DNA from: a virus
Length of the DNA: 40,260 nucleotides
Direction: 5' to 3' (one strand)
Virus record (IMG/VR): IMGVR_UViG_3300021961_000225
Span: 1 to 40,260 of that record
The position numbers were made by a program, and so were the translations under genes. Every line of letters begins with the position of its first letter. Position 1 is the stretch's first letter. Below are positions 6,996-40,260 of the stretch, piece by piece. The notes beneath the pieces were generated by a model. That model did no database searches, was not told the origin of the DNA, and saw only the letters and a list, made by a program, of their open reading frames with translations.

Positions 6996-7409
6996 ATGAA
7001 AGCATCTCAATTTAAAGAATTAATTAAAGAAGCGGTAAGAGAAGTTCTAAGAGAAGAGCTTACATCTACCACCCCACCCCCACCGGTGCAGGAGCAGGTT
7101 AAGTATAAACCTACCGGGAATGCTATGCTCGATATATTAAACGAAACCAGAGCTAATATGTCGACTAGTGAATATAGAAATATTACAGGTGGCACCTTAG
7201 GATCTTCGCTAGCTCAGAGCTACAATAGAAGTGTATTTATGCCCAACCAGAACCTTACACCTGCTTCAAACGATCCTAACGTTGTAGCTAGATCAGTTGC
7301 ATCTGCTCCTAAAATTGGAATCGATATATCCCAACTGGGATTTGTAAATAAAGCAGCTGCTATCGTAAGTACTGCAACAAAAAAAGATAAAGAGAGACTT
7401 GGAGGGTAA
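6996..7409 (+). CDS. Baseplate-cluster protein with N-terminal helical tag
   Basis: A 137-residue protein that begins MKASQFKELIKEAVREVLRE, the same kind of amphipathic tag carried by the 22-32 kb genes. A proline-rich linker (TPPPPVQEQ) follows, then a polar region (GNAMLDILNETRANM ...). No family recognised. The tag has several LxE/IxE sites. It overlaps the gp25 start by one base (TAATG), so it belongs to the wedge operon. It may be a baseplate or tail-internal protein. Confidence 0.7.
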   Translation: MKASQFKELIKEAVREVLREELTSTTPPPPVQEQVKYKPTGNAMLDILNETRANMSTSEYRNITGGTLGSSLAQSYNRSVFMPNQNLTPASNDPNVVARSVASAPKIGIDISQLGFVNKAAAIVSTATKKDKERLGG

Positions 7410-21663: not shown

Positions 21664-22442
21664 TTTACAAAGGTGCAAACGTTCTCTATGAACATAAGAG
21701 AAAAAACTTAATGTTCGATGGAGAGCTTGAACAGATTACATTCCTAGATCGTAGAGTTTACAAGAAAGAAGAAGGAGTATATTACCCTTCAGTAACGACC
21801 GTCTTACAGTACATGCCAAAGAATAAGTTCTTTGATAACTGGTTAAAAGACGTAGGACACAACGCTGATCTTATTATGAGAAAGGCAGCTGAAGAAGGAA
21901 CAGCAGTACACAATGCTGTCGAAGCTCTTATCAAAGGAGAAGAGATTACCTGGATGGATGACTTCGGTAATGCTAAATACAATCTTACTGTCTGGCAGAT
22001 GATCTTAAAAGCTGCTGAGTTCTTCAAACTACACAACCCAGAAGTCATCGCTGCAGAAGAATTTACATTCTCAGATCAGCATGAGTATGCAGGTACTGCT
22101 GACTTGATTGTTAAGATGGATGGAGAGATCTGGCTACTTGATGTTAAGACCTCTAACAATCTACACCGTTCTTACGACCTGCAGTTAGCAGCTTATGCTA
22201 AGGCCTGGGAAGAGATGTTTGGTCAAAAAATTGATAGAACCGGTATCTTATGGTTAAAGTCTAGTAAAAGAAGCGCTTCCAAGAAGGAAGGAGTATACCA
22301 AGGTAATGGATGGGAAATTAAAGTCATTGATAAGATTGACGAAAACTTCGAGCTATTTAAAACGATCTACAGTTTATTCAGACTAGATAACCCAACTATA
22401 GAACCTATTTATAATCATTACCCAACTAAGATCAAGCTATGA
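21660..22442 (+). CDS. PD-(D/E)XK nuclease, RecB/Cas4-like
   Basis: A 260-residue nuclease. Motifs in order: H84 in GTAVHNAVEAL, E133/E134 preceding the core, D148 in YAGTADLIV, D161-x-K163 in LLDVKTSNN, and Q175/Y179 in DLQLAAYAKAW. This is the complete RecB/Cas4-type exonuclease signature, and the metal-binding residues are intact. No four-cysteine iron-sulphur cluster motif was seen, unlike Cas4. It likely processes DNA ends in replication or recombination. It overlaps both neighbours by four bases. Confidence 0.85.
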   Translation: MIYKGANVLYEHKRKNLMFDGELEQITFLDRRVYKKEEGVYYPSVTTVLQYMPKNKFFDNWLKDVGHNADLIMRKAAEEGTAVHNAVEALIKGEEITWMDDFGNAKYNLTVWQMILKAAEFFKLHNPEVIAAEEFTFSDQHEYAGTADLIVKMDGEIWLLDVKTSNNLHRSYDLQLAAYAKAWEEMFGQKIDRTGILWLKSSKRSASKKEGVYQGNGWEIKVIDKIDENFELFKTIYSLFRLDNPTIEPIYNHYPTKIKL

Positions 22443-23377
22443 AGTTAATGGAGGCTCTTTTATCTGAAGCAAAGGCACGTCCTAAAGCGTTAATCATGGC
22501 CGGCGGTGCCGGTACTGGTAAGACACATATGGTTAATACTTTGAAAAAAGCTGCTGCTCTACCTGAAGATATCACGATCTTCAACCCAGACCAGTACGTC
22601 GAAGATAAGAAGAGTCCTGCATTTAATAACCTATCGATGGCTTCAGCTATGACTGATAAAGCCGCTTCTGAGCACGCTTATGATGGAGAGCCATTCGTAT
22701 GGGATACCACGGCCAACAACCCAGATAAGACAGTTAACGACATTAGAGCAAAAGGATACGATGTGATGATGATTATGATGATCACTCACCCTGCTATCTC
22801 TCTTCTTAAGAATTTTGAAAGAGAGCGTAACATTCCTAAGATTGCTGTATTTGAAACTTGGATGAGAAGCTTTGACCTTATTGGGTATTATTCCAAGCTT
22901 TTAAAAGATAACTTTGTTATCGTACCAAATATGATGGGTGGCTCTTACGATGCTGAGGTTCGTAAGTTTAATCATGCTGCTAAGAGAGGTGGTGAAGGTA
23001 TTTTAGAGTATATTGATTCTCTAGGAGAACTGAAATCATCGTTTAGAAAGCCGTTTGAGATCGAAGATGAAGCTGCTCTAGCTGCTTATGAGGAGTTAGT
23101 AAAACCTCTTAGGTTAGATTCTAGCGACGAAGATATGACTAAGAATCTTAAGAAGCACTTCATGGCTACTTGGGACAAGAAAGGCGAAGGTCCTACGTTT
23201 GACTCAATGAAAAAGAAGGTTGCTGCTATCGAACGTAACAGAGACAGTGCTGAAAAGAAATACAAAGATATCCTCAATAGAGTTGCAAAAGTTGTTAATA
23301 GCGACCAGTACGACATGGTGACTAAAGGTACTACTGATGCTCATGTAATCTCTAAGACTAAAAAGTTCTTTGCATGA
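22439..23377 (+). CDS. P-loop kinase (zeta-toxin-like) with N-terminal capsid-targeting-like tag
   Basis: A 312-residue protein beginning MKLMEALLSEAKARP, like the T4 internal-protein signal MKTYQEFIAEA, with LSE followed by A at residues 8-11. A Walker A motif follows directly (AGGAGTGKTH, 21-30), then NPDQYVED and VWDTTANN, and a Lys/Glu-rich C-terminal helical region. The arrangement resembles zeta-toxin/polynucleotide-kinase-type phosphotransferases; the substrate is unknown. It overlaps both neighbours by ATGA junctions. Virion packaging is inference from the tag. Confidence 0.7.
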   Translation: MKLMEALLSEAKARPKALIMAGGAGTGKTHMVNTLKKAAALPEDITIFNPDQYVEDKKSPAFNNLSMASAMTDKAASEHAYDGEPFVWDTTANNPDKTVNDIRAKGYDVMMIMMITHPAISLLKNFERERNIPKIAVFETWMRSFDLIGYYSKLLKDNFVIVPNMMGGSYDAEVRKFNHAAKRGGEGILEYIDSLGELKSSFRKPFEIEDEAALAAYEELVKPLRLDSSDEDMTKNLKKHFMATWDKKGEGPTFDSMKKKVAAIERNRDSAEKKYKDILNRVAKVVNSDQYDMVTKGTTDAHVISKTKKFFA

Positions 23378-25368
23378 AACTAGCAGTATTTGGAGGAGGA
23401 TTTAAACCACCAACCGCCGGACATTTTAGAGTAGTCGAAGCAGCTACTACACAAGTTCCTGATGCGGACAAATACATTGTGTACGTAGGAAAAGAAGCTA
23501 GAGACGGTATTGATCAAGATACTTCTTACGATATTTGGAAGATCTATCAGAAGTACCTCCCGGGTAATGTTGAGATTGTAAAAGCATCAAAACCACCTAT
23601 CGGAGAGATATACTCACTAGCATCCAAGAACCCAGACGATCAAGTAGTTTGGATTTTAGGAGCAAGAGAAGGTAGAGAAGACGACCTAGAAGATATTCAA
23701 GATCGTACTTCATACTTTAAAAAGAATCAAGAAAAATACCCTAATTTAGAGGTTAAGGTTGTACAGACTCCTGATAGTGGTATGAGCGGTACAAATGCCC
23801 GTAAAGCTATTTTAGCAGGAGACAAAGAAGAATTTTTTAAATACCTTCCTGCAGTAGTTAAGCAGAAAGATATGATATTTGACATCCTGATTAAGGCTAT
23901 GAACAGTACACCAGAGAAAAAAATGGCAGATGCTATTGATGAAGTATTTGCTAACCTTACCTACACAAAAGAGGATATAGAATGGTTAAACGCTCCAATG
24001 GGACCTCTTGAAGAGATTACCAAAGGATCACCAGCAGCACCGATTGCTGTACTACCTTCTAAGGAGAGACAAAAACTTCAAAATTATACTAAAATTTTGC
24101 AGGATGCTTTACCTGATGAATTTGATGTAGAGTATAGACAAGACCATATTAGAGTTTCTGTCCCTTATTTTGATAAGAATAAAAACTTTAAACAAGACTG
24201 GACTCCTCAGCAAAGAATACTCCCTGAAGAGACTGTCGGTCAGTTTGAATTTGCTCCTCATATTGCTTCTATCTTAGAATACTGTATGGAGCAAGGTATG
24301 TCAGTAGTACCTATCCCAGACGTTACGCTTAAGCACGATGATGAGAATGCTGCCGATCTTTTTGGTAAGACAGCATACTATCAGCCAGATACTCAACAAA
24401 TTGCACTATATGTAACAGGACGTCATCCTAAGGACGTTTTACGTTCTTTCTGTCATGAACTTATACATCACATTCAAAACGTAGAAGGACGTCTACCAGC
24501 CTTCACTACTCAAAATACTCAAGAAGATGATGTATTAAGAGAGATCGAACAAGAAGCTCATATGGGAGGTTCGATGCTGTTCCGTGAGTGGGAAGACACT
24601 TGCAAAAAAAAAGATCTTGAAGAAGGTACAAAGTATCGCTCCTTAGTAGTTGATATTAGAAAGGCAGTAAATGCTGCTCTTAACACACTTTTATCAGGAG
24701 GCAAGTTTAAAGGCTATAATATAAAAACCAAAAGAGAGCCTTCAGAAAAAGATAGAGAGTTTGCTGAAAAGTATGGAATGTCTCCTCTAGGAGCTATGCT
24801 CTATAACGAATATCAAACTGCATATTTAGGTAGTTTTGAAAGTAAAAGCGAGAAAGGTACACCAACCACGGTAGGAGTGTCTCTTAAGTTTGCTTTAACA
24901 GATGAAGTAAAGCCTGGTAAGTTTCACATTGATGGAGAAGCAGGATCCGACGAAGGAGAAATCGACATCATTTTAGCATTTAATCCTGCTGACGGTACTA
25001 ATATGCTTCAGACTATCCAGTCCACCCTAACAGACCTCATCCGTCACGAGACTGAGCATTTAACTCAAAGCGGGGAGGAAGTTAAGCCAACTAAGTGGAT
25101 GAGAAAAGATGAGGCTAGACGAAGAGAGATTAGACAAAACCCTGAAATTTGGTACAAATACTACCTACTACCAAAAGAAGTAGATGCTAATATTCAAGGC
25201 TTATATGCTAAAGCAAAATACGAAAAGAAAGATTTTCAAAACGTTGTAGATACTTACCTAACTGACTTAGTAGGTGATGGAATTATCACTCAAGCTAATA
25301 GTAAGCAGATTTACAGTAAGTGGAAAGCAAGAGCTACACAAATTGGTGGAATACCAGAATTAAAATAA
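23374..25368 (+). CDS. Nucleotidyltransferase fused to two HExxH metallopeptidase-like domains
   Basis: A 664-residue protein. Residues 1-170 are a cytidylyltransferase/NMN-adenylyltransferase-type domain: GGFKPPTAGH (8-17) and SGTNAR (138-143) are the two nucleotide-binding signatures. A second region has HELIH (361-365) with EIEQEAH (390-396) downstream. A third has HETEH (558-562) with KEVDA (601-605) downstream. In each, the later acidic residue is placed to be a third zinc ligand (gluzincin-like). No tag at the N-terminus. I know of no named protein with this layout. It follows the kinase by an ATGA overlap. Confidence 0.7.
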   Translation: MKLAVFGGGFKPPTAGHFRVVEAATTQVPDADKYIVYVGKEARDGIDQDTSYDIWKIYQKYLPGNVEIVKASKPPIGEIYSLASKNPDDQVVWILGAREGREDDLEDIQDRTSYFKKNQEKYPNLEVKVVQTPDSGMSGTNARKAILAGDKEEFFKYLPAVVKQKDMIFDILIKAMNSTPEKKMADAIDEVFANLTYTKEDIEWLNAPMGPLEEITKGSPAAPIAVLPSKERQKLQNYTKILQDALPDEFDVEYRQDHIRVSVPYFDKNKNFKQDWTPQQRILPEETVGQFEFAPHIASILEYCMEQGMSVVPIPDVTLKHDDENAADLFGKTAYYQPDTQQIALYVTGRHPKDVLRSFCHELIHHIQNVEGRLPAFTTQNTQEDDVLREIEQEAHMGGSMLFREWEDTCKKKDLEEGTKYRSLVVDIRKAVNAALNTLLSGGKFKGYNIKTKREPSEKDREFAEKYGMSPLGAMLYNEYQTAYLGSFESKSEKGTPTTVGVSLKFALTDEVKPGKFHIDGEAGSDEGEIDIILAFNPADGTNMLQTIQSTLTDLIRHETEHLTQSGEEVKPTKWMRKDEARRREIRQNPEIWYKYYLLPKEVDANIQGLYAKAKYEKKDFQNVVDTYLTDLVGDGIITQANSKQIYSKWKARATQIGGIPELK

Positions 25369-25370
25369 TA

Positions 25371-26000
25371 ATGGGAAAGTTAGCAGAATTACTACTCACA
25401 GAAGATGAACAGAGCCCAACTAAGAAGTTTAGGCTATATTGCGATATGGACGGAGTACTTTGTGACTTCGATAAGCAGTTTATAGATATGCTTAAGAATC
25501 GTGAATTCGGAGGTAAGCATTACCGCAGTGAAGAGTTAGAAGGAATCAGTAGTCCATCTGATTTTGAATCTAAATTTGGAGGTCCTGAATTCTGGAAGTT
25601 TATTGATGAGATTTGCGGTAAAGACTTCTGGGCTAAGATGGAATGGACACCTGGAGGACGTCAACTATGGGGTGTAATTAGTAACTATAGTCCATCCCTG
25701 CTCACAGCTCCATCTAGAAATATGGTATCTAGAATTGGAAAAAGATCTTGGGCAAAATCACATTTGTCTCCCTCACCAGAAGGTATTATATTTAAGTACT
25801 CAGCGTATAAGCAAGAGGTCGCCGAACAGGATGTAGCAAAAGGTCTAGAGCCAATTTTAATTGATGATAGACAAGATATTATCGATCGTTGGCAAGCAGC
25901 CGGAGGCATCGGTATTAAACATCCTAAGAATGGAGATCCGTCTCAAGTTATAAAAAGAATACAGAAGTTATATGGAGAGTCATCTCAAGAAGGAATTTGA
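25371..26000 (+). CDS. HAD-superfamily hydrolase with N-terminal tag
   Basis: A 209-residue protein. I chose the ATG at 25371, two bases after the preceding stop, over an in-frame ATG at 25320 inside the upstream gene. The tag MGKLAELLLTEDEQ precedes HAD motif I, D25-x-D27 in YCDMDGVLCDF. TAPSRN is a candidate motif II and ILIDDRQD (about 166-173) is motif IV. Likely a phosphatase such as a 5'-nucleotidase; the substrate is unknown. The LLTE stretch could be a protease site. Confidence 0.75.
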   Translation: MGKLAELLLTEDEQSPTKKFRLYCDMDGVLCDFDKQFIDMLKNREFGGKHYRSEELEGISSPSDFESKFGGPEFWKFIDEICGKDFWAKMEWTPGGRQLWGVISNYSPSLLTAPSRNMVSRIGKRSWAKSHLSPSPEGIIFKYSAYKQEVAEQDVAKGLEPILIDDRQDIIDRWQAAGGIGIKHPKNGDPSQVIKRIQKLYGESSQEGI

Positions 26001-26541
26001 TTCCAAAGCAGTAAGTAGGGCTAGAAACCTTATCTCTAAAGATTTTGGTAAACGTACTACGGTCGGAACTGGTTATGAAAAAAAGAGAGAAAAGCATAGC
26101 GAAGGCGACATCTGGGAAGAAGATGGTAGAACCTGGACCATAAGGAACGGTGTTAAACAAAATATAACACGTTTAGATTCTGCCAAAAAACTAGCTCAAA
26201 TACCTTTAACCTGTCCAAAGTGCGGCGGATCGATGAAACATCATCTAGCTAAAAAGATGTATAAGATTCACGGCTTCTGCTTTGATTGTACTATTGACAT
26301 GGAAGCCGATCTACGTAAAGCCGGACTATATCAGCAGTACGAAAAACAAATGATGCAGGGGAATATGAAAGCCTGGGCTCAAGGATTAGAACAATGGGTT
26401 GCGGATCAAATTAGTGAAAACATAACCTTTGTAACAGAAGACGGTACGATCGAAGATTGGAAAGGAAACGACTCGCAAAAAGGTAAACTTCTGAAAGGAA
26501 TGTACGAATACCTTAAACATCTAAAGGAGCACATGGAGTAA
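25972..26541 (+). CDS. Zinc-ribbon protein conserved in T4-like phages
   Basis: A 189-residue protein overlapping the HAD gene by 29 bases. It has GDIWEEDGRTWTIRNGVKQN (about residues 45-64) and a four-cysteine zinc ribbon, CPKCGG and CFDC (about residues 81-106). The C-terminal half is helical. The WEEDGRTWTI...CPKCG pattern is one I associate with environmental T4-like phages, where function is not known. A DNA- or protein-binding role is plausible. No clear tag at its N-terminus. Confidence 0.7.
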   Translation: MESHLKKEFDSKAVSRARNLISKDFGKRTTVGTGYEKKREKHSEGDIWEEDGRTWTIRNGVKQNITRLDSAKKLAQIPLTCPKCGGSMKHHLAKKMYKIHGFCFDCTIDMEADLRKAGLYQQYEKQMMQGNMKAWAQGLEQWVADQISENITFVTEDGTIEDWKGNDSQKGKLLKGMYEYLKHLKEHME

Positions 26542-26550
26542 CTATTTATT
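26542..26550 (+). promoter_or_regulatory. Late promoter inside the tagged-protein cluster
   Basis: CTATTTATT, 11 bases before the ATG at 26562, placing this part of the cluster under late control. Confidence 0.5.
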
Positions 26551-26561
26551 AAGAAACATCC

Positions 26562-27884
26562 ATGCTTTTAACTGAATCTAAATTAACAGAGGTACTAACG
26601 GAAGGTCTTCGATATCACCTGGAGACTAAGACACCTCTATATAAAACCATATTCCGCCCAGGTTCAGAAGAATACTTCAAAACCATCAAGCAAGCCCGTC
26701 TTTTAATGAATGAAGGAGTTCTTACCGAACTTTGCCTAGAAGACATGGAGCTTCTATTTGAAACAGAAGTCGGCGAGTATGGTGAGTACAACGGTAAAAA
26801 AGTGCCGTTAGACTTTCCAATGCTAAACGAGATTGCAATGGTGATTCCTTCACCGGCTACCTCCTGGAGAGAAGCCTCTCAAGAGCCTCTAGTAATGAAG
26901 ATGGGTGAAGAGAGATGGATGGATTTAGCAGGAAAAGCTAAAGCAGGCGGAGGATTAGGCTATCAAACCAAATACTCAGACATCAAGTCATTCTTAGGAG
27001 AGCTACCCGCTGGTACAGTAACATTCTCAGATACTGATCAGATTCAGATGCCAACGGCATTAAAGTATATGAACGGTAATCAAGTAGATTATAAGCTTAT
27101 TGCCGGTGCTGATGTACTAGCTTCCATTCTACCAGAAGATCCGGACCCAGATATGTGGGTGGTAGATATTACAGGTGAAGCACAAGATACACCTTTACAG
27201 GAGATTCTTAGCATGATCGATGAAGCAGGCTTAAAAGACTTTGAAAAGCAGGCATTAATCATGAAGATTAAAAAAGCCGCCCAAGGTTCAGCTTCTTCTA
27301 AACATCTAGAGCAAATCATTGACGACTTAGTTAAGAAGCTTGAAAAGCCTTCCGCCACTGGAGTTAAGTATGCTTATGGTAAAAGAGTAGAAGAAGCTAC
27401 ATTTGACTCTCCTGCCCATATCGCTATCTACAGCGGTCCTGAAGGAGACGTAGATGTTTACAAAACTGCTGATGGAGGTTTTTATTTTGACACTGGTGAC
27501 TACGATGGAGAGGCACCTAATGCTGAAGAAGCAGCTAAATGGCTAAAGCGTAACGGGTTTACTACTTTACAAGCCGGTAAACTTGATGAAGCTAAATATA
27601 AAGGTAAAGAGGTTAAACTCAACAAACCAATGAGAAGCTCAGGACCTAAGAAATATAAGGTCTATACTAAGAACGCTAAGGGTAATGTAATTGTAGTTAA
27701 CTTTGGTGATGCTAAAGGCGGACTAACAGCTAAGATCAATAACGCTAAAGCTCGTAAGGCTTTCTCAGATCGTCATAACTGCCCTACTAAAAAGGATAAA
27801 ACTAAAGCAGGTTACTGGTCATGCAGACTGCCTCGTTACGCTAGTTTATTAGGATTAAAATCTAGCTTTGGAGGCTACTGGTAA
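26562..27884 (+). CDS. Tagged multidomain phage protein with C-terminal HNC/YWSC domain
   Basis: A 440-residue protein. The N-terminus MLLTESKLTEVLTEGLRYH is a tag with several LTE sites. Residues about 90-260 form a mixed domain (FPMLNEIAMVIPSPATSWRE ...) of unknown function. The C-terminal 95 residues (YKGKEVKLNKPMRSSGPKKY, then VIVVNFGDAKGG, RHNCPTKK, GYWSCRLPRYA) look like a small basic Cys-containing module I associate with several phage proteins. It is first after the late promoter at 26542. Structural or internal head protein is inferred. Confidence 0.65.
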   Translation: MLLTESKLTEVLTEGLRYHLETKTPLYKTIFRPGSEEYFKTIKQARLLMNEGVLTELCLEDMELLFETEVGEYGEYNGKKVPLDFPMLNEIAMVIPSPATSWREASQEPLVMKMGEERWMDLAGKAKAGGGLGYQTKYSDIKSFLGELPAGTVTFSDTDQIQMPTALKYMNGNQVDYKLIAGADVLASILPEDPDPDMWVVDITGEAQDTPLQEILSMIDEAGLKDFEKQALIMKIKKAAQGSASSKHLEQIIDDLVKKLEKPSATGVKYAYGKRVEEATFDSPAHIAIYSGPEGDVDVYKTADGGFYFDTGDYDGEAPNAEEAAKWLKRNGFTTLQAGKLDEAKYKGKEVKLNKPMRSSGPKKYKVYTKNAKGNVIVVNFGDAKGGLTAKINNAKARKAFSDRHNCPTKKDKTKAGYWSCRLPRYASLLGLKSSFGGYW

Positions 27885-27885
27885 T

Positions 27886-28203
27886 ATGAAATTAAGAGAC
27901 ATTATTTTAGAAGAGACCTCAGAGAAGTTCGATAACTTTGCTGAAACTAGAGGAGAAGGAACAGGAAAGATTGCTGCATCTGCCAAAGAAAAAGGCGGAC
28001 CTTCTATGCTAACCTACCACCACTTTAACGTTAAGCTTCCTTACTATAAGAAAGCAGCTGAAGGTAAATTTGATTTAGAAGCAGCTAAAAAAGAATTTGA
28101 AGTTACATACAAAAAAATCTCTCCTTCTATGGGGATGGTTGAGTTTCAAAAGGAGATGGGCCGTCTAGAAGTACTAGGAGAGCTCATCATCAAACATGGA
28201 TAG
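27886..28203 (+). CDS. Small tagged protein
   Basis: A 105-residue protein. I chose the ATG at 27886, one base after the previous stop, giving the tag MKLRDIILEETSEKF; a longer start at 27868 lies inside the upstream gene. The rest is helical and Lys/Glu-rich (LPYYKKAAEGKFDLEAAKKE). No family recognised. IILE in the tag is a potential protease site. The gene overlaps the next by eight bases. Confidence 0.65.
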   Translation: MKLRDIILEETSEKFDNFAETRGEGTGKIAASAKEKGGPSMLTYHHFNVKLPYYKKAAEGKFDLEAAKKEFEVTYKKISPSMGMVEFQKEMGRLEVLGELIIKHG

Positions 28204-28486
28204 ACCCTATTCAGATATTCAGATTGACGATCATTGCGTACTAAGAAGATTTGACGCAAACGTAGAATCACAAGAGCTTTACTGGCACAGAGACGACGAA
28301 GATCGTTCTGTAGAAATTATAGAATGCGGTGAGGGATGGAAGATGCAATACGACAACCAACTGCCAATCAACCTTACTGAAGGAATTACTCTATTTATTC
28401 TAAGACACGAATGGCATCGTGTTATTAAAGGTTCTGGAGATTTACTTATAAAAATTTACAAACATGGCAAAGAAAAAACAATCTGA
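28196..28486 (+). CDS. Small cupin-like protein
   Basis: A 96-residue protein with an all-beta pattern: WHRDDEDRSVEIIECGEGW, ITLFILRHEWHRVIKGSGDL and a final strand LIKIYK. The HxxxD and RHEWHRV segments suggest a small cupin-like fold, possibly metal-binding. No tag at the N-terminus. It overlaps the flanking genes by 8 and 23 bases. Function unknown. Confidence 0.65.
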   Translation: MDRPYSDIQIDDHCVLRRFDANVESQELYWHRDDEDRSVEIIECGEGWKMQYDNQLPINLTEGITLFILRHEWHRVIKGSGDLLIKIYKHGKEKTI

Positions 28487-28709
28487 TAACGAGATCATCG
28501 ACGAACTACTCGCAAAACCTTCAATAGCTGAAGAGATTATCGCCGCTCCAGTACTTAAAGTAAAAGCAGAAGAGAAGAAAGCTCCTGGCATGTATCATAA
28601 CGGAAAGCTTATTACAAAAGTTCTTACTCGGTTAGGTAAGCAGTGGAGCGTTGTGATTGAGGGTAAAAGAACAAAAGTTTTAAAATCAGAGATTGAAATT
28701 GTTGGCTAA
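28464..28709 (+). CDS. Hypothetical basic protein
   Basis: An 81-residue Lys-rich protein. The N-terminal half is helical (NEIIDELLAKPSIAEEIIAA) with an LxxP break, and the C-terminal half has strands (LITKVLTRLGKQWSVVIEG) resembling a small SH3-like barrel. Its start overlaps the previous gene by 23 bases and its stop overlaps the next ATG (TAATG). No family recognised. Confidence 0.6.
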   Translation: MAKKKQSDNEIIDELLAKPSIAEEIIAAPVLKVKAEEKKAPGMYHNGKLITKVLTRLGKQWSVVIEGKRTKVLKSEIEIVG

Positions 28710-28852
28710 TGGCTAAGATTAAGTCTCAAACCGCCGCTACTGCTTACGAAAAACCAAATGTAAGCAGACCAGGAGTTCATGCTAAGACAAAGACATCAGG
28801 ACTAAAGACCAGTAGAAACTATAAGAAGAAGTACCGTGGACAAGGTAGATAA
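28709..28852 (+). CDS. Very basic 47-residue phage protein
   Basis: A short frame with ATG at 28709 (TAATG with the previous stop) and TAA at 28850-28852. The protein contains SRPGVHAKTKTSGLK and ends NYKKKYRGQGR, with about a quarter Lys/Arg. The RPGVHAKTKTS pattern looks familiar from environmental T4-like phages but has no known function. It probably binds nucleic acid. The overlapping junctions support translation. Confidence 0.65.
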   Translation: MAKIKSQTAATAYEKPNVSRPGVHAKTKTSGLKTSRNYKKKYRGQGR

Positions 28853-28880
28853 GAAATACGGAGTAGGTACATCTGCTTTT

Positions 28881-29039
28881 ATGCGCGACCTTATCAGAGA
28901 GGTTCTAGCAGAAGAGAAACCCGGCCTATGGGCTAATATTAGAGCCAAAAGAGCTAGAGGTGAGAAGCCTTCACATAAGAACTCAAAAGCTTTCAAAGAC
29001 GCTGTCAAAGCCGGTAAAGAAATTAATAAGAATAGCTGA
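28881..29039 (+). CDS. Small tagged basic protein
   Basis: A 52-residue protein starting MRDLIREVLAEEKPG, followed by LWANIRAKRARGEKPSHKNS and a basic end. I chose the ATG at 28881 because it makes the tag N-terminal as in its neighbours. A GTG at 28836 in the same frame would add 15 residues and overlap the preceding gene. Nucleic-acid binding is likely from its charge. LAE followed by E is a possible cleavage point. Family unknown. Confidence 0.6.
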   Translation: MRDLIREVLAEEKPGLWANIRAKRARGEKPSHKNSKAFKDAVKAGKEINKNS

Positions 29040-29130
29040 AATGCTTCCTACCTCAGAAATCCGAAGAAGAACTGCGTCAGGGAGAATAGGAGGTTAATTA
29101 TAATGTTTTTGTAGTTTCCATTATACAGCA

Positions 29131-29643
29131 ATGAAAAAGAGTCAATTAACAGAGATCATTAGAGAGGTGCTTGCCGAGACTATCCGTAAGGTAGACGGCA
29201 AGTATGTTGTGTACCCTAAGCACGGTGGAGATAGATTAGGTACTCATGATACTAGAGAAAAGGCTTTAGCTCAATTAAGAGCTATTGAAGCCTCTAAGCA
29301 TGAAGAGATTACTCCTGCCGATCCATCTAAAGTAGATCCTCATCAATTAAAGATGGGAATCAAAGTAGAGATGGAGCACACCAATGACCCTAAAGTAGCT
29401 GAAAGAATAGCCCTGCAGCACCTAGCTGAAGACCCTCAGTACTACACCAAGCTTACTAAAGCTGGCTTGGAAGAAGGTCCTCACGATGCTATGAACCCTG
29501 GAATCCTTTCTAAAGACTCAAGCTTAAAGGGTGCAGACGGTAAGATTAAAATCTCTAAGGTAAGAGCAAAGCTTAGCAGTACGAAAGATAAAGGAAGTAC
29601 AAAGGCTAAAGCTCTGCGTAGATTTATTAACTACCACGATTAA
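29131..29643 (+). CDS. Tagged DUF5661-like protein
   Basis: A 170-residue protein. The tag MKKSQLTEIIREVLAETIRK is followed by a short strand module (GKYVVYPKHGGDRLGTHDTR, then EKALAQLRAIEA) that occurs in phage proteins. Residues about 70-108 (LKMGIKVEMEHTNDPKVAER, then IALQHLAEDPQYYTKL) match the pattern of the DUF5661 family. The C-terminus is basic. Function of the family is unknown. The 91-base gap before it holds only an 18-codon frame that I do not call. Confidence 0.7.
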   Translation: MKKSQLTEIIREVLAETIRKVDGKYVVYPKHGGDRLGTHDTREKALAQLRAIEASKHEEITPADPSKVDPHQLKMGIKVEMEHTNDPKVAERIALQHLAEDPQYYTKLTKAGLEEGPHDAMNPGILSKDSSLKGADGKIKISKVRAKLSSTKDKGSTKAKALRRFINYHD

Positions 29644-29646
29644 CCG

Positions 29647-29655
29647 CTATTTATA
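29647..29655 (+). promoter_or_regulatory. Late promoter
   Basis: CTATTTATA, followed by AAGAAATAATATTATC and the ATG at 29672; 16 bases separate element and start. Confidence 0.55.
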
Positions 29656-29671
29656 AAGAAATAATATTATC

Positions 29672-30472
29672 ATGGCCATATCTTTCAAAAAAGAAGTCAT
29701 TACGGAAGCTATTAAACAGGTACTTGCTGAAGCAGAAGTAGTAGTGATTGGTAAAGAAGATCCTAAAAAGGATATCGCTCTTGCAAAAGACAGAATGAAG
29801 AAAGCAGGAGTAAACAACCCAGAAGCTTACAAAAACCTAGACTCTTTAAAACCGGGTGATACTGTTACTGCGGAAGACCATCACGAAGATCCAAACGATG
29901 AATCGGATATGGCTAAGGTACAGCTTGCTAACGTAATTCATTACGCTCAAGAGCTTTTAACTATGATCAAAGACGGTCAGCAGTTAGATGCTTGGGTTCA
30001 AAGCAAGTTAACTATCGCTTTTGATTACATCGATTCAGTTAAGCACTACCTAGAAGGTGAAGATTACTTAGCTGCTACTGAAGCACCTGCTGAAGAAGAG
30101 CCAATCGCTGAAGAAGAAGACTACGATATGGACTTAGATAACCTAAAAGGTCCCTCTAAAAAAGATCTTGAAGGAGAAAAAGTAAAAAGTGTAGCATCCG
30201 ATAAAGCAGAAGCCTTCAACAGAGCTTTAGCATTTATTAAGAAGTATAAAGATAAGCCTGAAGTAGTTAAAGCAATGCTACAGAAAGCTAAGGATGTTTA
30301 TAAGCTACCGAAACCTCTGCTTAAAAACTTAGCTTCAGCAGCTCTAGATGAAGTACTAGCAGAAGGAGTATCATGCTGCGGAAGATGTGGTAGAGTACAC
30401 GAAAGCTCTCAAGAATGTAAAAAGCCTTATATATCAAAAGACAGTCCAAAACATTGCAAGAACAAGAAGTAA
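29672..30472 (+). CDS. Tagged helical protein with Cys-rich tail
   Basis: A 266-residue protein. The tag ISFKKEVITEAIKQVLAEAE spans residues 3-22 with LAE followed by A at 18-21. Residues about 76-135 (DESDMAKVQLANVIHYAQEL ... AWVQSKLTIAFDYIDSVKHY) form a helical domain I associate with phage structural proteins. An acidic linker and a helical region follow. A second LAE followed by G (229-232) immediately precedes a cysteine cluster (C235, C236, C239, C249, C262) that could bind zinc. Possible internal head protein. Confidence 0.7.
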   Translation: MAISFKKEVITEAIKQVLAEAEVVVIGKEDPKKDIALAKDRMKKAGVNNPEAYKNLDSLKPGDTVTAEDHHEDPNDESDMAKVQLANVIHYAQELLTMIKDGQQLDAWVQSKLTIAFDYIDSVKHYLEGEDYLAATEAPAEEEPIAEEEDYDMDLDNLKGPSKKDLEGEKVKSVASDKAEAFNRALAFIKKYKDKPEVVKAMLQKAKDVYKLPKPLLKNLASAALDEVLAEGVSCCGRCGRVHESSQECKKPYISKDSPKHCKNKK

Positions 30473-31344
30473 TGAAGCGACAAGATCTAAGAAATATCAT
30501 TGAAGAAGCTTATTATGAGCTTTTAGAAGAGCAGGGAATGATCTCTACTCCAGAACAAGCTATGTACGAAAAAGCTTGTAAGATGAGTGAAGCTCAACTC
30601 AAAACCCTTCTTAATGAATTAGAAACTCAAGAGTTCTTAGACGCAGTAGAAGATGAATTTGATCTAGAGACTCTTCAGTTAATGAAAGGAGTAATCGAAA
30701 AGAGATTATCCTTCCTAAATAAAGCTATGGATATAGCTAACCCTAGAACAGTAGTTAAAGGCTACATTAAGGAAGCTGAAGGAGATGAGGAAGAAGTTCC
30801 TACTGAAGAACCAGCTGAAGAAGAGACTCCTGATACAGAATTTCCTGATGCAGGCGATCTAGAAGGAGCAGAAGAAGAAGCTCCTGATGCTACTGCTGAT
30901 ATCTTAGCTAAATTTCCTACTCTAAAGAAGACTATAGTTCACTTAATGACTCCTGAATTTGAGGAGTTTGTAGAGAAAGTAGGCTGGATGTCTCCTAAGC
31001 CATCTACATTTAAGGTAGAGCTTAAGAACGGCCAGGACTTTTTATTAAAGTGGATGGGAGAAGGCTTTGAAGCTACTGTAGAAGGTAAAAGATACTACCT
31101 ACAGAACCTATCCGAATATCAGCAGTGCCTAGATAAACTCACAGATATGTTAGCTTCTGGACCAATCCAAAGCGGTATGGGAACCGAGAGCGGTGAAGAT
31201 GTATTTGGAGGTGTTGAAGGTGGAGGTGGCGAGTTTCCTGGAGCAGAAGGCGGAGCAGAAGCAGGCGCTGAAACTGGTGCCGAAGCAGGAACGGAAGCAC
31301 CAGCCGGAGGTGAAGAAGATGTATTTGCCGGTGTAGAAGCATAA
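30472..31344 (+). CDS. Tagged acidic protein with low-complexity C-terminus
   Basis: A 290-residue protein. The ATG at 30472 (TAATG overlap with the previous stop) is preferred over one at 30454. The start MKRQDLRNIIEEAYYELLEE is a tag. Residues about 100-140 are an acidic Glu/Pro linker, 145-228 a folded domain (TLKKTIVHLMTPEFEEFVEK ...), and 240-290 a Gly/Ala/Glu-rich stretch bracketed by EDVFGGVE (242-249) and EDVFAGVE (282-289). Unknown function; the very acidic body resembles prohead core proteins in composition. Confidence 0.7.
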   Translation: MKRQDLRNIIEEAYYELLEEQGMISTPEQAMYEKACKMSEAQLKTLLNELETQEFLDAVEDEFDLETLQLMKGVIEKRLSFLNKAMDIANPRTVVKGYIKEAEGDEEEVPTEEPAEEETPDTEFPDAGDLEGAEEEAPDATADILAKFPTLKKTIVHLMTPEFEEFVEKVGWMSPKPSTFKVELKNGQDFLLKWMGEGFEATVEGKRYYLQNLSEYQQCLDKLTDMLASGPIQSGMGTESGEDVFGGVEGGGGEFPGAEGGAEAGAETGAEAGTEAPAGGEEDVFAGVEA

Positions 31345-31347
31345 GCT

Positions 31348-32532
31348 ATGAATCTTATAGACAAAATAGTTACAGAGTGGTCTTGGAGAACAGTCAAAGG
31401 CTACCCTGATGTTAATTCTCAAGAAGATCTAGATATCTTATGGGAAGCTTTAGGTATTGACCTAGACGAAGCTTATACTTTCTTTCCTAAGTCTGTAGAT
31501 GAATTAGAAGATGAAAAGCTAGAAGCTCTACTAACTATCATCAAGGATTACCCTAATCTTAAAATGGAAGATCCTTTAGCAGTTGATACTAATAAACCTA
31601 ATAAGCCAAAGATCTCTCGCTCATTAAGCAGGGATAATCGCTTTATCGAATACCTTCAGGATAAATTAGGAGTTCCGGTAGATCCGATGGACACTATTAA
31701 ATGGAATGGCTTAATCATTAGCTTTGGTGAAGGATCAAGAGGAGGTAGAGGAGCTGCTTCTAAAGGACTTTCTTTCGAGAAAGAGTTAGAACAGGATCTT
31801 AATAACTACAAAGAAGGAGTTAAAGAATTCCAGCACCCTGATCTTACCAGAGATATTGTACAGCAGTTTGATCTTACCCCGGATAACTTTAGGATTGTAC
31901 CTGAAGGGGGTGAAAACAAACCACGTCCTTTAGAATTTACATCTGACGGTCCTATCATCGGATTCTCAGGTCCTTCTATTGCTGCTACATTAACAGACCT
32001 CACTATCGATAAAGGTGGTGAACCAGTCTACTTATCTCTTAAGTTTGGAAAGACACTAACCTTCTTTAACTCAGGAGTAGCTAGAATATTCACACCAGAA
32101 GACTTCCAAGACGGTAAGATTGATAATCCTGAAGGAGCTTCTCTATTAGAGACGTTTGGTATTGATAACGAAATCTTCTGTAAGGTATTTAACGAATACG
32201 GCAAAGAAGACTTTACTCAGTACCATAAGACAGTTACCGATTATGATCAAACCAAACTATATAACTTAGTACATTCAGGTATCGGAAGCGGTTACTGGAT
32301 GGTAAAAGGAGGTAAAGGTAAGTATTCTTTCTTTGAAGTAACTGACGAGTTTGCTAAAAAAGCTGCTACTCCTCAAGGAGGTATTACAATCCTATATGGA
32401 GGAGATACCGGTAAAGGAAAACGTATTGATATTAAGTTTGAATCAGAATACTATGTATTTAAACTCAACATCAGAAACAAGCAAGGAAAGCTTTATCCGT
32501 CTCACATTATGTGCGACTATGTAAGAAAATAA
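31348..32532 (+). CDS. Tagged large protein, possible PD-(D/E)XK-like nuclease
   Basis: A 394-residue protein beginning MNLIDKIVTEWSWRTVKGYP, a variant of the tag (IVTE). Residues about 138-235 carry GLSFEKELEQDL, then LTDLTI with D217 and EPVYLSLKFG with K232. The helix-D-strand-SLK order recalls restriction-endonuclease-like folds where S replaces the usual acidic residue, but this is weak. The C-terminus ends in strands and helix (YYVFKLNIRNKQGKLY). It closes the tagged cluster and precedes a late promoter. Confidence 0.6.
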   Translation: MNLIDKIVTEWSWRTVKGYPDVNSQEDLDILWEALGIDLDEAYTFFPKSVDELEDEKLEALLTIIKDYPNLKMEDPLAVDTNKPNKPKISRSLSRDNRFIEYLQDKLGVPVDPMDTIKWNGLIISFGEGSRGGRGAASKGLSFEKELEQDLNNYKEGVKEFQHPDLTRDIVQQFDLTPDNFRIVPEGGENKPRPLEFTSDGPIIGFSGPSIAATLTDLTIDKGGEPVYLSLKFGKTLTFFNSGVARIFTPEDFQDGKIDNPEGASLLETFGIDNEIFCKVFNEYGKEDFTQYHKTVTDYDQTKLYNLVHSGIGSGYWMVKGGKGKYSFFEVTDEFAKKAATPQGGITILYGGDTGKGKRIDIKFESEYYVFKLNIRNKQGKLYPSHIMCDYVRK

Positions 32533-32551: not shown

Positions 32552-32896
32552 ATGAACAACAAGTTATCTTCCCTAATCATAGTAATTGCAGTGTTAATCG
32601 CAGCAATGTATGCTACTGGATTATACAATCCATACAAAGCAGCTTACCTCAAAGAGCTGAAAGATCAAAGAGAAGCTAGCGAGGCTAGAGAATTGCAGCT
32701 TATCAAGCGTATCGACTCTTTAGCCTTTCAAGGCGGATTATTACAAGCTAAAGCTGACTCTATTGAGAACGCTCTAGATATTGAAGAGGCAAAACGTAAA
32801 AGAGAAAGAGATGCATTTAATCAAAAAATGGCTGAGCTTAGCAAGCTTTCTGTTGATAGCTTACCCGGCTACTTCGCAAAGCGTTACAATCGTTAA
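32552..32896 (+). CDS. Rz-like spanin component (membrane anchor plus coiled coil)
   Basis: A 114-residue protein with an N-terminal transmembrane segment (about residues 6-24) and a long charged coiled coil (about 34-97), ending LSVDSLPGYFAKRYNR. This is the topology of an inner-membrane Rz-type spanin that spans the periplasm in the last step of lysis. The next gene begins inside its 3' end in another frame, as in Rz/Rz1 pairs. Assignment rests on topology and overlap, not on sequence identity. Confidence 0.6.
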   Translation: MNNKLSSLIIVIAVLIAAMYATGLYNPYKAAYLKELKDQREASEARELQLIKRIDSLAFQGGLLQAKADSIENALDIEEAKRKRERDAFNQKMAELSKLSVDSLPGYFAKRYNR

Positions 32897-33230
32897 GGGA
32901 GATACGCTAGTATGCTTCCCTGACCATATGGTTAGACAGATCATCGCTGATTTAGAAGCCGGTGATCAATGTGCTATTGAGAGAATCAGCTTAGAAAAGA
33001 GTATTGAAGATTATAAGAAGCTTGTTGAAACTAATAAAGCACAGCTCGACAACCTACAGCAAAGATTAGTTGCTTACGACGATATTTTTATCGAAAAACA
33101 GAGCCAAATTGACCTAAGAGATAAAGAGATCTCAGTCCTAGAAAAAGAAAAGAAAGCTAAATTCTGGAGCGGATTATCCTTAGGGGGAGTTAGTGGAGCT
33201 GGTATTATAGCAATCTTACTCCTATTATGA
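32811..33230 (+). CDS. Secreted coiled-coil protein with C-terminal membrane segment, spanin partner
   Basis: Using the ATG at 32811 gives 139 residues: a signal peptide (HLIKKWLSLASFLLIAYPATS), a periplasmic coiled coil (about residues 55-115) and a C-terminal hydrophobic segment (LSLGGVSGAGIIAILLLL). An alternative ATG at 32781 adds ten charged residues ahead of the signal and is less likely. There is no lipobox cysteine, so it is not a classic Rz1 lipoprotein. It overlaps the upstream gene by 86 bases and terminase by four. Confidence 0.6.
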   Translation: MHLIKKWLSLASFLLIAYPATSQSVTIVKGDTLVCFPDHMVRQIIADLEAGDQCAIERISLEKSIEDYKKLVETNKAQLDNLQQRLVAYDDIFIEKQSQIDLRDKEISVLEKEKKAKFWSGLSLGGVSGAGIIAILLLL

Positions 33231-34804
33231 GTGAGCAGCAAAATGTTAAGCAGATAGTAGTACAAGAATACGCAAAGTGTGCCAAAGATCCGGCATACTT
33301 TATGCGTAAGTACTGCTATATTCAACACCCTCAAAGAGGAAGAATCTTATTTAATCTTTATCCTTTCCAGGACAAGGTATTACATATATTTAGAGATCAT
33401 CAATTCTTAATTACGCTTAAATCTAGACAGCTAGGAATTTCAACTCTAGCATCAGGTTATGCGTTATGGTTAATGATCTTTCACAAAGATAAGAACGTAT
33501 TAGCTCTTGCAACCACTCAAGCTACTGCTAGAAACCTGGTAACCAAGGTACAGTTTATGTACGAACAGCTTCCTAGCTGGTTAAGATTAAAAGCAGTAGA
33601 AAAGAACAAACTTTCACTAAGACTGGTAAACGGATCTAGAATCTCAGCTAAATCATCAAACTCAGATGCTGCTCGTTCAGAAGCAGTATCATTATTGTTA
33701 ATTGATGAGGCTGCATTCATTGAGAATATTGATGATACGTTTGCAGCTGCTCAACAAACATTAGCTACCGGAGGTCAATGTATGGCCTTATCAACTCCTA
33801 ACGGTATCGGTAACTGGTTCCACCAGACCTGGGAGAAAGCAGAGACAGGGGAGAATTCCTTTGTACCTATTAAGCTACCCTGGACAGTACATCCTGAAAG
33901 GAACCAAGCCTGGAGAGATCAACAAGACGCTGATCTAGGTCCTAGAATGGCTGCTCAAGAGTGCGACTGTGACTTCTTATCATCTGGAGAAACAGTATTT
34001 GAACCTGAAGATTTGATTTTCATGGAAACTACCTCACAGCATGATCCGTTAGAAAAAAGAGGTATAGACGGCAACTACTGGATCTGGGAGTACCCTGATT
34101 ATATGAAATCCTACATGGTTGTAGCTGACGTTGCTCGAGGTGACGGACAGGACTATTCTACATTCCATATCTTTGATGTAGAAGCAGCTTCTCAAGTTGC
34201 TGAATTTAAAAGCAAGGTACCTCCAAAAGACTTTGGTAACATGTTAGTAGGAGTTGCTACTGAATATAACAATGCCCTACTAGTAGTTGAAAATGCTAAC
34301 ATTGGATGGTCTACTATTGAACAGATTATTGAAAGAGAGTACCCTAATCTCTACTACTCTTCTAGATCAGATCAGGATACTGTAGAGACTTATATGAATA
34401 AGATGGAACGCGGTAACTTAGTTCCAGGCTTCACAATGTCTATGAGAACTAGGCCATTAGTAATTGCCAAGATGATGGATTATGTTAGAGAAAGATCTGT
34501 AACAATTAAATCACAGCGCCTACTTAAAGAGATGAGAGTCTTTGTGTGGAAGAATGGTAAAGCTCAAGCACAGACTAATTACAATGACGACCTTGTAATG
34601 GCCTTTGCAACCGGGTTATATGTTAGAGATACCGCTTTAAAATTAAGACAGCAAGGTATGGAATTATCTAGAGCTTCTTTATCAGCTATAAGTAATCTTA
34701 ATAATAGACAAGGAGGAGCTTATAAAAATGTTGGATATATGCAAAATAATCCGTATACTATAGATACTCCACACGGTACCGAGGATATATCTTGGTTACT
34801 GTAG
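33227..34804 (+). CDS. 17: Terminase large subunit gp17
   Basis: A 525-residue DNA-packaging motor. The ATPase domain has a Walker A-like KSRQLGIS (65-72), Walker B LLLIDEA (156-162, D160/E161) and the coupling region STPNG (189-193). The RNase H-like nuclease domain has D301 in VVADVARGDGQDYS, E355 in VVENANIGWS and D454/D455 in NYNDDLVMAF. It docks on the portal, pumps DNA into the prohead and cuts the concatemer. Slightly shorter than T4 gp17 (610). No small-terminase gene is visible beside it. Confidence 0.95.
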   Translation: MSEQQNVKQIVVQEYAKCAKDPAYFMRKYCYIQHPQRGRILFNLYPFQDKVLHIFRDHQFLITLKSRQLGISTLASGYALWLMIFHKDKNVLALATTQATARNLVTKVQFMYEQLPSWLRLKAVEKNKLSLRLVNGSRISAKSSNSDAARSEAVSLLLIDEAAFIENIDDTFAAAQQTLATGGQCMALSTPNGIGNWFHQTWEKAETGENSFVPIKLPWTVHPERNQAWRDQQDADLGPRMAAQECDCDFLSSGETVFEPEDLIFMETTSQHDPLEKRGIDGNYWIWEYPDYMKSYMVVADVARGDGQDYSTFHIFDVEAASQVAEFKSKVPPKDFGNMLVGVATEYNNALLVVENANIGWSTIEQIIEREYPNLYYSSRSDQDTVETYMNKMERGNLVPGFTMSMRTRPLVIAKMMDYVRERSVTIKSQRLLKEMRVFVWKNGKAQAQTNYNDDLVMAFATGLYVRDTALKLRQQGMELSRASLSAISNLNNRQGGAYKNVGYMQNNPYTIDTPHGTEDISWLL

Positions 34805-36749: not shown

Positions 36750-37601
36750 ATGAAAATAAAGCATTCGAAGTACAAAAACACTGGATTAATCTTTGAGCTG
36801 CTGGTAAAGCAGATCGCTGCCGATACGCTGTCCCGTAAAGACTCGCCGGCCGTTAAGATCATGAAAAAATTCTACACAGGAAAATCTTCCTTAGTTAGAG
36901 AGTTTAAATTGTACGAATATATCCTTAAAAACAAAGGAGTATCCCAACAGAAGGGTGAAACCATCCTTTCCACTATTACAGAAATTTCCCTTAAATTAGA
37001 TAGAGAGGCTGTTAAGAAGCAGAAATACGATCTTATTGCTGAGATTAAAAACAGCTACGATCTAGATGAATTCTTCTCTATGAAGGTTAGAGATTACAAA
37101 GCTCTAGCTGCTCTATACTGTCTAATGGAAGCACAGAGTGCTGATTTAGCCGACCCACAGACTTTAGTAGATAATAAAATGACTGTACTAGAGCACTTAA
37201 CTGAATCTAAGCAAAACGAAGAAGACGTTAAAGATGCTTTAGTAGAAGAGTATGCAAAGTATGATAAGGATCTAAGGATGCTTACATACAAGATTTTACT
37301 TGAGAAATTTAACGGAGAGTATAGTAACCTCCTACCAGAGCAGAAAGCTATTCTAAGAGAATTTATCAATGCATCTGAATCTCAGGTAAAACTAAGAACA
37401 TTAATTAACGAGGAGCTTGAAAAAATTAGCCTTGCTGTCGAGGAGATGAAGACTAAGGTTAAGAACGACATTGCTAAGATTAAATTAGACGAAGTCGCAA
37501 AAACCATCAAGCCTCTTACCAAACAAACTCGCGTAAACGATAGTCATATTGTTAATCTATTACAGTATTACGAATTAGTTAGCGAGTTAAAGACTTTATG
37601 A
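36750..37601 (+). CDS. Conserved prohead-region protein
   Basis: A 283-residue, mostly helical, charged protein. The start KIKHSKYKNTGLIFELLVKQ is followed by DTLSRKDSPAVKIMKKF, a pattern I have the impression is shared by environmental T4-like phages between portal and protease. No T4 equivalent was recognised; in T4 the small core proteins gp67 and gp68 occupy this place. It may belong to the assembly core or chaperone portal incorporation. The next gene overlaps it by four bases. Confidence 0.7.
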   Translation: MKIKHSKYKNTGLIFELLVKQIAADTLSRKDSPAVKIMKKFYTGKSSLVREFKLYEYILKNKGVSQQKGETILSTITEISLKLDREAVKKQKYDLIAEIKNSYDLDEFFSMKVRDYKALAALYCLMEAQSADLADPQTLVDNKMTVLEHLTESKQNEEDVKDALVEEYAKYDKDLRMLTYKILLEKFNGEYSNLLPEQKAILREFINASESQVKLRTLINEELEKISLAVEEMKTKVKNDIAKIKLDEVAKTIKPLTKQTRVNDSHIVNLLQYYELVSELKTL

Positions 37602-37819
37602 AAAAGCACGAGGTAGCCGAGTTACTAAGAGAGTTTGTTAGAGAGCAGCTTTCTGAAATGAACGTTACCGGCAATGTTGGTGCATACCAAACACCTTTTG
37701 CTTTTTCTAAAGGAGACAGAGATAACTTAGCCACCAAGTTTATGGCTAAAATGGGTTTCAAGAAAACACAAAGACCGAAAAGACCTTCTAGTACAAAATT
37801 AGTAGACTACAGACAATGA
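37598..37819 (+). CDS. Small tagged prohead-region protein
   Basis: A 73-residue protein beginning MKKHEVAELLREFVREQLSE, the same helical tag as the 22-32 kb cluster, here beside the prohead genes. The remainder (GAYQTPFAFSKGDRDNLATK, then a basic end RPKRPSS) is polar and basic. LSE at residues 18-20 is a possible gp21-type cleavage point. It overlaps both neighbours by four bases. It could be an assembly-core protein comparable in size to T4 gp67 (80 residues). Confidence 0.7.
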   Translation: MKKHEVAELLREFVREQLSEMNVTGNVGAYQTPFAFSKGDRDNLATKFMAKMGFKKTQRPKRPSSTKLVDYRQ

Positions 37820-39137: not shown

Positions 39138-39716
39138 ATGGCAAACGTACTAGTAGAATATACTCCATTCAAATCCGTTCTTAGAGAATCTAAGGAAAGA
39201 CCGGGTGTATTTGAAGTAGAGGGTATCATGCAGAGAGCAGGATCTCAAAACCAAAACGGTAGAGTATACTCCCCAGAAGTACTAAAAAGGGAAGTTGAGG
39301 CCTACATGGAAAACTTCGTTAAAGTAGGTAATGCTTACGGAGAGTTAGACCATCCAGAATCTCCTATTGTATCTTTAAAGAATGCCTCTCACGTAGTTAA
39401 AGACTTATGGTGGGATGGAGATAATCTTTGCGGAAGAGTAGAACTATTAAATACTCCAGCAGGAAACATCGTAAAAGAAATTATTAAAGGTGGACACACA
39501 ATCGGCATCTCTTCTAGAGGTACAGGTTCTGTTAAACCTACAAACGAAGGATATCTAGAGGTTCAAGATGACTTTGAGTTAGTATGTTGGGATTTTGTTT
39601 CTAATCCATCTACTCACGGTGCATTTATGAATCCTATTTCATTGAACGAAGGAGCTGTTAAGCAAGATAAGTATTCTAAATTAGATTCTATCTTAAATGA
39701 CATCCTAAGAGCTTAA
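39138..39716 (+). CDS. 21: Prohead core protease gp21
   Basis: A 192-residue serine protease of the T4 prohead type (T4 gp21 is 212 residues). H72 in GELDHPESPIV and S125/S126 in HTIGISSRGTGSV are the likely catalytic pair, and VCWDFVSNPSTHGAFM is the conserved C-terminal block. I chose the ATG at 39138; an earlier in-frame ATG at 39063 lies inside the upstream gene. It cleaves core and capsid proteins after (I/L)xE during maturation, and its presence supports processing of the tagged proteins. Confidence 0.9.
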   Translation: MANVLVEYTPFKSVLRESKERPGVFEVEGIMQRAGSQNQNGRVYSPEVLKREVEAYMENFVKVGNAYGELDHPESPIVSLKNASHVVKDLWWDGDNLCGRVELLNTPAGNIVKEIIKGGHTIGISSRGTGSVKPTNEGYLEVQDDFELVCWDFVSNPSTHGAFMNPISLNEGAVKQDKYSKLDSILNDILRA

Positions 39717-40198: not shown

Positions 40199-40260
40199 AT
40201 GGCTAACAAAGATTTATTTAAGCAGGCTATTGCTGATGCTAAATCTATCCGTGAAGCTGC
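40199..40260 (+). CDS. Start of a head gene, probably prohead scaffold gp22 (partial)
   Basis: Only the first 20 codons are in the window: MANKDLFKQAIADAKSIREA. The charged amphipathic helix resembles the start of gp22-type prohead core scaffolds more than gp23 capsid proteins, and T4 gene order (21, 22, 23) predicts gp22 here. It has its own late promoter and a structured leader, fitting a highly expressed protein. The gp23 alternative cannot be excluded from 20 residues. Confidence 0.55.
   Translation, partial: MANKDLFKQAIADAKSIREA

Follow-up and report, generated by a model that had tools for sequence, protein, structure and literature searches.

Why should a run of phage proteins with unrelated bodies begin with nearly the same few residues? 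The question is posed by the genes at 22439-32532 of an IMG/VR record, a linear window of 40,260 bases that makes up the whole stretch of DNA analysed here (the window). The window comes from a marine phage, T4-like and of the type that infects Flavobacterium in its named relative immuto. Its structural genes, including S77 protease, portal and terminase, are T4-like, and the named phages nearest to it by terminase large subunit (TerL) are Flavobacterium phage immuto (74.5% identical) and then Microcystis phage Mel-JY01 (51%). The window ends within the scaffold gene (Table 1), which in relatives is followed next by the capsid gene. Directly before terL, at 32552-33230, lie two small genes that overlap and that encode a membrane or signal segment at the N-terminus, possibly a spanin pair.

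Table 1. Features of the window. A slash within a sequence marks the predicted cut.
Position	Strand	Feature	Evidence or remark
6996..7409	+	Tagged protein among baseplate genes (MKASQFKELIKEAVREVLREE)	PSSM
22406..22413	+	TATTTATA, late-promoter candidate	33 nt before first cluster gene
22439..23377	+	Tag MKLMEALLSE/AK; zeta-toxin-like P-loop kinase	Pfam Zeta_toxin 5e-12
23374..25368	+	Cytidylyltransferase/NMNAT-like, untagged; two HExxH motifs	phrog_3041 6.5e-9
25371..26000	+	Tag MGKLAELLLTE/DEQ; 5'(3')-deoxyribonucleotidase (NT5C, HAD)	Pfam NT5C 1e-6; phrog_2643 5e-20
25972..26541	+	Zinc-ribbon-like protein, untagged, conserved	
26562..27884	+	Tag MLLTESKLTEVLTE/G; uncharacterised body	C-terminal phrog_7595 domain
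27886..28203	+	Tag MKLRDIILEE; uncharacterised body	Corrected start
28196..28486	+	Small conserved protein, untagged	
28464..28709	+	Doubtful tag (NEIIDELLA)	Weak regex match alone
28709..28852	+	Small basic protein, untagged	Conserved in immuto
28881..29039	+	Tag MRDLIREVLAEE; small basic body (KPGLWANIRAKRARGEKPSH)	ATG 28881
29131..29643	+	Tag MKKSQLTEIIREVLAE; body with DUF5661	Pfam DUF5661 8.5e-14
29648..29655	+	TATTTATA motif	24 nt before 29672
29672..30472	+	Tag MAISFKKEVITEAIKQVLAE/A; acidic body	
30472..31344	+	Tag MKRQDLRNIIEEAYYELLEE; acidic body	
31348..32532	+	Polymorphic slot: ~40-aa N-terminus MNLIDKIVTE/WSWRTxKGYPD.., variable body	phrog_8438 4e-67
33227..34804	+	Terminase large subunit	Anchor for comparison of relatives
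37598..37819	+	Tagged small protein (MKKHEVAELLREFVREQLSE/MNVTG)	gp67/68 position, between portal and protease
39138..39716	+	S77 (gp21-like) prohead protease	PF03420 E=3.7e-34 at 39198-39650
40199..40260	+	Scaffold gene, gp22-like, start	Cut by window end

Nine of fourteen genes in the block are tagged

Counting the small ones, the block holds 14 genes, nine of which are convincingly tagged. An initial annotation of this DNA had described a tagged cluster of ten or more genes; the nine tagged genes stand, while the remaining five (23374, 25972, 28196, 28464 and 28709) are untagged or doubtful. The nine N-termini that it quoted are all present where it had placed them, with four starts corrected (25371, 27886, 28881, 30472): the NT5C/HAD gene begins at ATG 25371, not GTG 25320, the MKRQDLRNII N-terminus begins at 30472, and for the gene with tag MRDLIREVLAEE the corrected start is ATG 28881, with GTG 28836 a possible alternative. 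The kinase, HAD hydrolase and DUF5661 bodies that it had named were each matched by Pfam. Its broader claim, of a large set of enzymes packaged in the head and ejected into the host, is sustained as regards a portable signal tied to the prohead protease, but just three or four of the bodies in the tagged block are recognisable enzymes.

The pattern [ILV][ILV]xE falls within the ∼26 N-terminal residues of 9 of the 14 block genes, compared with 65 of 758 internal 26-residue windows (8.6%; binomial p=3.4e-7). A position-specific scoring matrix (PSSM) built from 88 distinct tags of IMG/VR relatives, with the window left out of training, placed 10 of 13 genes of the cluster, against 4 of 34 elsewhere in the window, beyond the 98th percentile for internal windows (Fisher 4e-5), a test that is not wholly independent because orthologues of the cluster genes sit in the training set. 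Two of the four positives outside the block, 6996 and 37598, resemble real tags, neither of which the initial annotation had pointed out. Counterparts of the former, whose tag is strong, lie at 81525 in immuto and at 52479 in contig G014 (113 kb), and its product is either a head protein encoded among baseplate genes or a counter-example to head targeting. The description of the tag helices as amphipathic did not hold: their hydrophobic moments lie mostly near the mean of internal windows and are not unusual, and strong amphipathicity is unsupported by this comparison.

Scans of the cluster proteins against Pfam and PHROGs found no homologues of T4 IPI, IPII, IPIII or Alt, and comparison of the cluster with defence families gave just marginal ATPase matches, to the kinase. 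In relatives, the tag before the P-loop of this kinase varies (LLQE/AR, IILE/Q). The product of gene 23374, which is also labelled cytidylyltransferase/metallopeptidase, differs from the cytidylyltransferase of Mel-JY01, which bears the tag MGKLxxxLLSE.

Across 80 related contigs found via TerL, 33-63% of genes per 1-kb bin are tagged at 2-9 kb before terL, against 10.7% of internal windows, and the gene listings of these relatives reveal a common layout in which a tagged block precedes terL while its gene content changes. In the complete genome of immuto, 10 of 19 cluster genes are tagged, compared with 13 of 136 early genes (Fisher 3e-5). The early-gene rate equals background; certain of these early tags look real, such as MIKLIDLLTE and MSLINEIKQILSE. 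A BLAST search of a 20-residue tag against named phages returned no match, and we found no paper giving a virion proteome of immuto or Mel-JY01.

Two other recurrent N-termini were seen in immuto (MW353175) and in contigs L029 and L035. MENFDLKKFLVENKLTxNSxxL occurs at four places per immuto genome with different bodies behind it, and MKKQILSEQFxRMQxLAGIITES occurs at two places. Both contain LxE/IxE sites.

One front end precedes many bodies

The slot before terL (31348) joins a constant front of ∼40 residues to six mutually non-alignable groups of bodies among 43 distinct relatives. A member of group 1 was modelled (pLDDT 80) as two N-terminal helices, a disordered linker (residues 42-56) and a folded body; this body has just a weak restriction-enzyme-like match (MspI, E=3e-3, TM 0.28), and very distant homology between slot groups may therefore exist. 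The model of the 31348 protein itself (pLDDT 52) is too poor for fold assignment. Other tags behave similarly in relatives: MTRERLTEIIREVLAE is joined to several bodies, the tag type of the 29131 protein precedes other bodies, and MKLIDLLLEE stands before two unrelated bodies within one contig.

A degenerate DNA pattern for MKKSELxxIIKE, run on IMG/VR with the reversed pattern as control, matched 36 stretches, and its reversed form matched none. These 36 loci were picked for one tag and not for arrays. On a single contig, up to nine proteins share 86% identity over their first 15 residues and 7% over residues 21-45. Pairs of proteins alike in the tag and unlike just after it were present at 25 of the 36 tag loci and at 0 of 81 control loci, the latter taken from a shorter DNA pattern; two other control patterns gave 0 and 5 matches. 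Thus the portable signal on unrelated bodies that had been proposed is borne out, both by the six slot bodies and by such arrays. Among 774 differing tag codons, 427 are synonymous and 347 are not, and half of the differences fall at third positions, which argues that the tag peptide is what is kept. A DNA-level element (a recombination or translation signal) behind the sharing of tags is disfavoured on the same grounds, most differences being synonymous or falling in the third base of the codon.

The tag resembles a predicted prohead protease site

The initial annotation had placed a gp21 gene about 7 kb away, and the S77 protease gene does lie 6.6 kb downstream of the block. Near its N-terminus this protease contains [ILT]xE/S, kept in relatives (SVLRE/SK in the window copy), which is a candidate site for its N-terminal self-processing. 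The capsid proteins of relatives start MELNSLLNE/S, and their propeptide ends AKQ[LI][VI]xE, with the E invariant and P2 variable in 12 of 12 distinct sequences; the maturation site is a prediction, placed by analogy to T4 gp23. The tags end in the same form, [LI][VI]xE, as this predicted site. The tag is also carried by the protein that occupies the place of T4 genes 67/68 (37598), with 32 distinct N-termini among relatives.

S77 protease was detected in 17 of 34 contigs with the tag and in 3 of 50 random contigs (p=4.5e-6) or, among contigs of at least 30 kb, in 11 of 14 and 2 of 26 (p=1e-5), an association that could come partly from shared ancestry. Certain tagged genes lie far from head genes, and in one large contig the tag array is 43 kb from terL.

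Read together, these sequences give good support to a portable signal at the N-terminus that is linked with the prohead protease. The shared N-termini are probably propeptides that target a large and exchangeable set of cargo proteins to the capsid: given that nine unrelated proteins share a front end matching a capsid-protease cut site, the phage probably loads custom cargo into its head. While the prohead assembles, the scaffold or core would bind the short helix at the N-terminus. The S77 protease would then cut after [ILV][ILV]xE, as predicted for the capsid protein, and so release the body within the head, and the bodies (a zeta-type kinase, a deoxynucleotidase and a number of small or uncharacterised proteins) would be exchangeable cargo that enters the next host with the DNA. 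We infer the packaging, cleavage, ejection and host function of these proteins by analogy.

Some T4-like contigs that bear the tag (L099, L100, the 140-kb L104, L112, L120, L127 and L132) read TGA as sense: they have 1-12 in-frame TGA codons, and an uninterrupted frame for TerL, portal, protease or capsid protein is obtained only with table 4. The portal reading frame of L100, L112 and L104 is ∼1010-1060 residues long, and the portal profile is split near position 100 (L112, L104) or near 371 (L100), suggesting that these portals hold an inserted intein-like element of ∼400 residues.

A candidate promoter motif favours head and tail genes

The motif TATTTATA has 11 copies in the window (544-40101), all on the coding strand (+) and mostly 11-38 nt upstream of a start codon. 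In the counts that go with those for immuto, it stands upstream of 4 of 10 head, 10 of 49 other structural, 1 of 21 cluster and 5 of 136 early genes, which makes it a candidate late promoter, and a better marker of head and tail genes than of the cluster. The T4 late-promoter consensus TATAAATA is absent from the coding strand of the whole window, all 11 copies lying on the minus strand, and we rejected T4 late promoters in T4 orientation. Of the late promoters earlier proposed inside the cluster, there remain the TATTTATA copies at 22406 and 29648, but not the orientation of the T4 consensus.

Alternative explanations

Counting against the cargo reading are the five untagged or doubtful cluster genes, including the conserved cytidylyltransferase, as well as the tagged 6996 among baseplate genes and the scattered tag-like N-termini in immuto early genes. 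The tag could be a prohead-core assembly helix only, its bearers being auxiliary scaffold that is processed and largely lost; this would suit the tagged protein in the gp67/68 position and the long acidic tagged proteins 29672 and 30472, which look scaffold-like. However, kinase and deoxynucleotidase folds and fast-changing bodies are ill-suited to a structural core, and related enzymes occur in finished cyanophage virions (PMC10665884, PMC9602691), making us sceptical of this explanation, which we consider unlikely. We rate a shade lower the idea of a generic interaction helix with some other partner (a tail/baseplate, replication or membrane complex), in which the [ILV]xE ending is incidental. 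The unremarkable hydrophobic moment, the tagged genes in early regions, and 6996 and its relatives among baseplate genes would all be expected of such a helix, yet the tag is common to prohead proteins, ends in the predicted cut motif of the capsid protein, and occurs on contigs enriched for S77 protease.

Least probable by far is a compositional or start-site artefact, whereby AT-rich phages, with an abundance of L, I, K and E, would give such N-termini by chance. A loose regex does have a background of 8-10%, but the binomial test (3e-7), the profile (10/13 against 4/34), the reversed DNA pattern (0 matches against 36) and the conservation of tags in relatives, where selection acts on the amino acids, all speak against it. 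A chance or compositional origin is ruled out by the internal windows, the reversed DNA pattern and the control loci.

Returning to the cargo reading, a wider proposal can be made, for and against which we judge the chances to be about equal: that a 'polymorphic cargo' system is widespread in many non-enteric T4-like phages, some with TGA as sense, in which a constant, head-sorting and self-removing N-terminal module is combined with dozens of swapped bodies, both as arrays and within a slot reserved for them before terL. If so, each phage would own an arsenal of proteins injected with its DNA. If the cargo reading is right, a short sequence pattern would flag many otherwise uncharacterised proteins of phages as cargo of the head, reaching the host at time zero, the stage at which counter-defence proteins such as T4 IPI and takeover enzymes such as Alt do their work. 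The tag would also be a candidate sorting signal for loading proteins into non-T4 capsids.

Comparison with known systems

The virion proteome of cyanophage S-CREM2, obtained by mass spectrometry, comprises 52 proteins (PMC10665884). A T4-type pattern (the start, then F-hydrophobic-x-E within ∼14 residues) is found in 6 of 217 S-CREM2 proteins, 5 of the 6 being virion-detected (Fisher p=0.003, or p=0.00025 excluding annotated structural proteins), p-values that are indicative because the sequences had been seen before the pattern was fixed. The five are a SAM hydrolase, an APH-like kinase, a cytidylyltransferase and two unknowns. S-CREM2 gp12 (OR473000), annotated as Cas9, is another virion protein; its N-terminus resembles a targeting signal, with the motif, ending ASFMAE/A, slightly further in. 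As a predictor of virion proteins in S-CREM2, [ILV][ILV]xE showed no enrichment (p=0.55), as would be expected of clade-specific consensus motifs, and we rejected it as a universal predictor; the link of our tag to virions is thus by analogy. The T4-like cyanophages S-CREM2 and S-SCSM1 (PMC10665884, PMC9602691) resemble the present phage in their cytidylyltransferase/NMNAT and kinase cargo, and differ in tag consensus and gene set, and in that the window's cytidylyltransferase is without an N-terminal tag. Genes for NT5C, zeta-kinase and cytidylyltransferase are also found together in Pelagibacter phage HTVC008M, and Methylophilales phage Melnitz has those for NT5C and cytidylyltransferase together, in each case behind other short leaders.

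The inner-body and ejection proteins of phiKZ and SPN3US (PMC5694885) are numerous, head-packaged and made with N-terminal propeptides cut after xE, but several of these propeptides exceed 100 residues, the consensus is A-x-E or S-x-E, and the phages belong to a different group. In a limited literature search we found no description of the clade-specific tag, the number of tagged genes or the slot of one front and many bodies.

The proposed mechanism is nevertheless of a known kind, that of the T4 internal-protein system. In T4, no more than ten residues of IPIII are needed for entry into the head, and gp21 removes them (PMC9026906). Like the tagged proteins described here, T4 IPI, IPII, IPIII and Alt (PMC9026906) have an N-terminal propeptide of ∼10-20 residues ending hydrophobic-x-E in front of unrelated, variable bodies, and in both cases a gp21-type S77 protease and head genes of the gp20-22-23 kind are encoded close by. 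Unlike the T4 form, the consensus here is MKxxxLxxIIREVLxE or MKLIDLLLE, about nine tagged genes stand in one block where T4 has four, several bodies resemble metabolic enzymes, and one slot combines a constant 40-aa front with interchangeable bodies.
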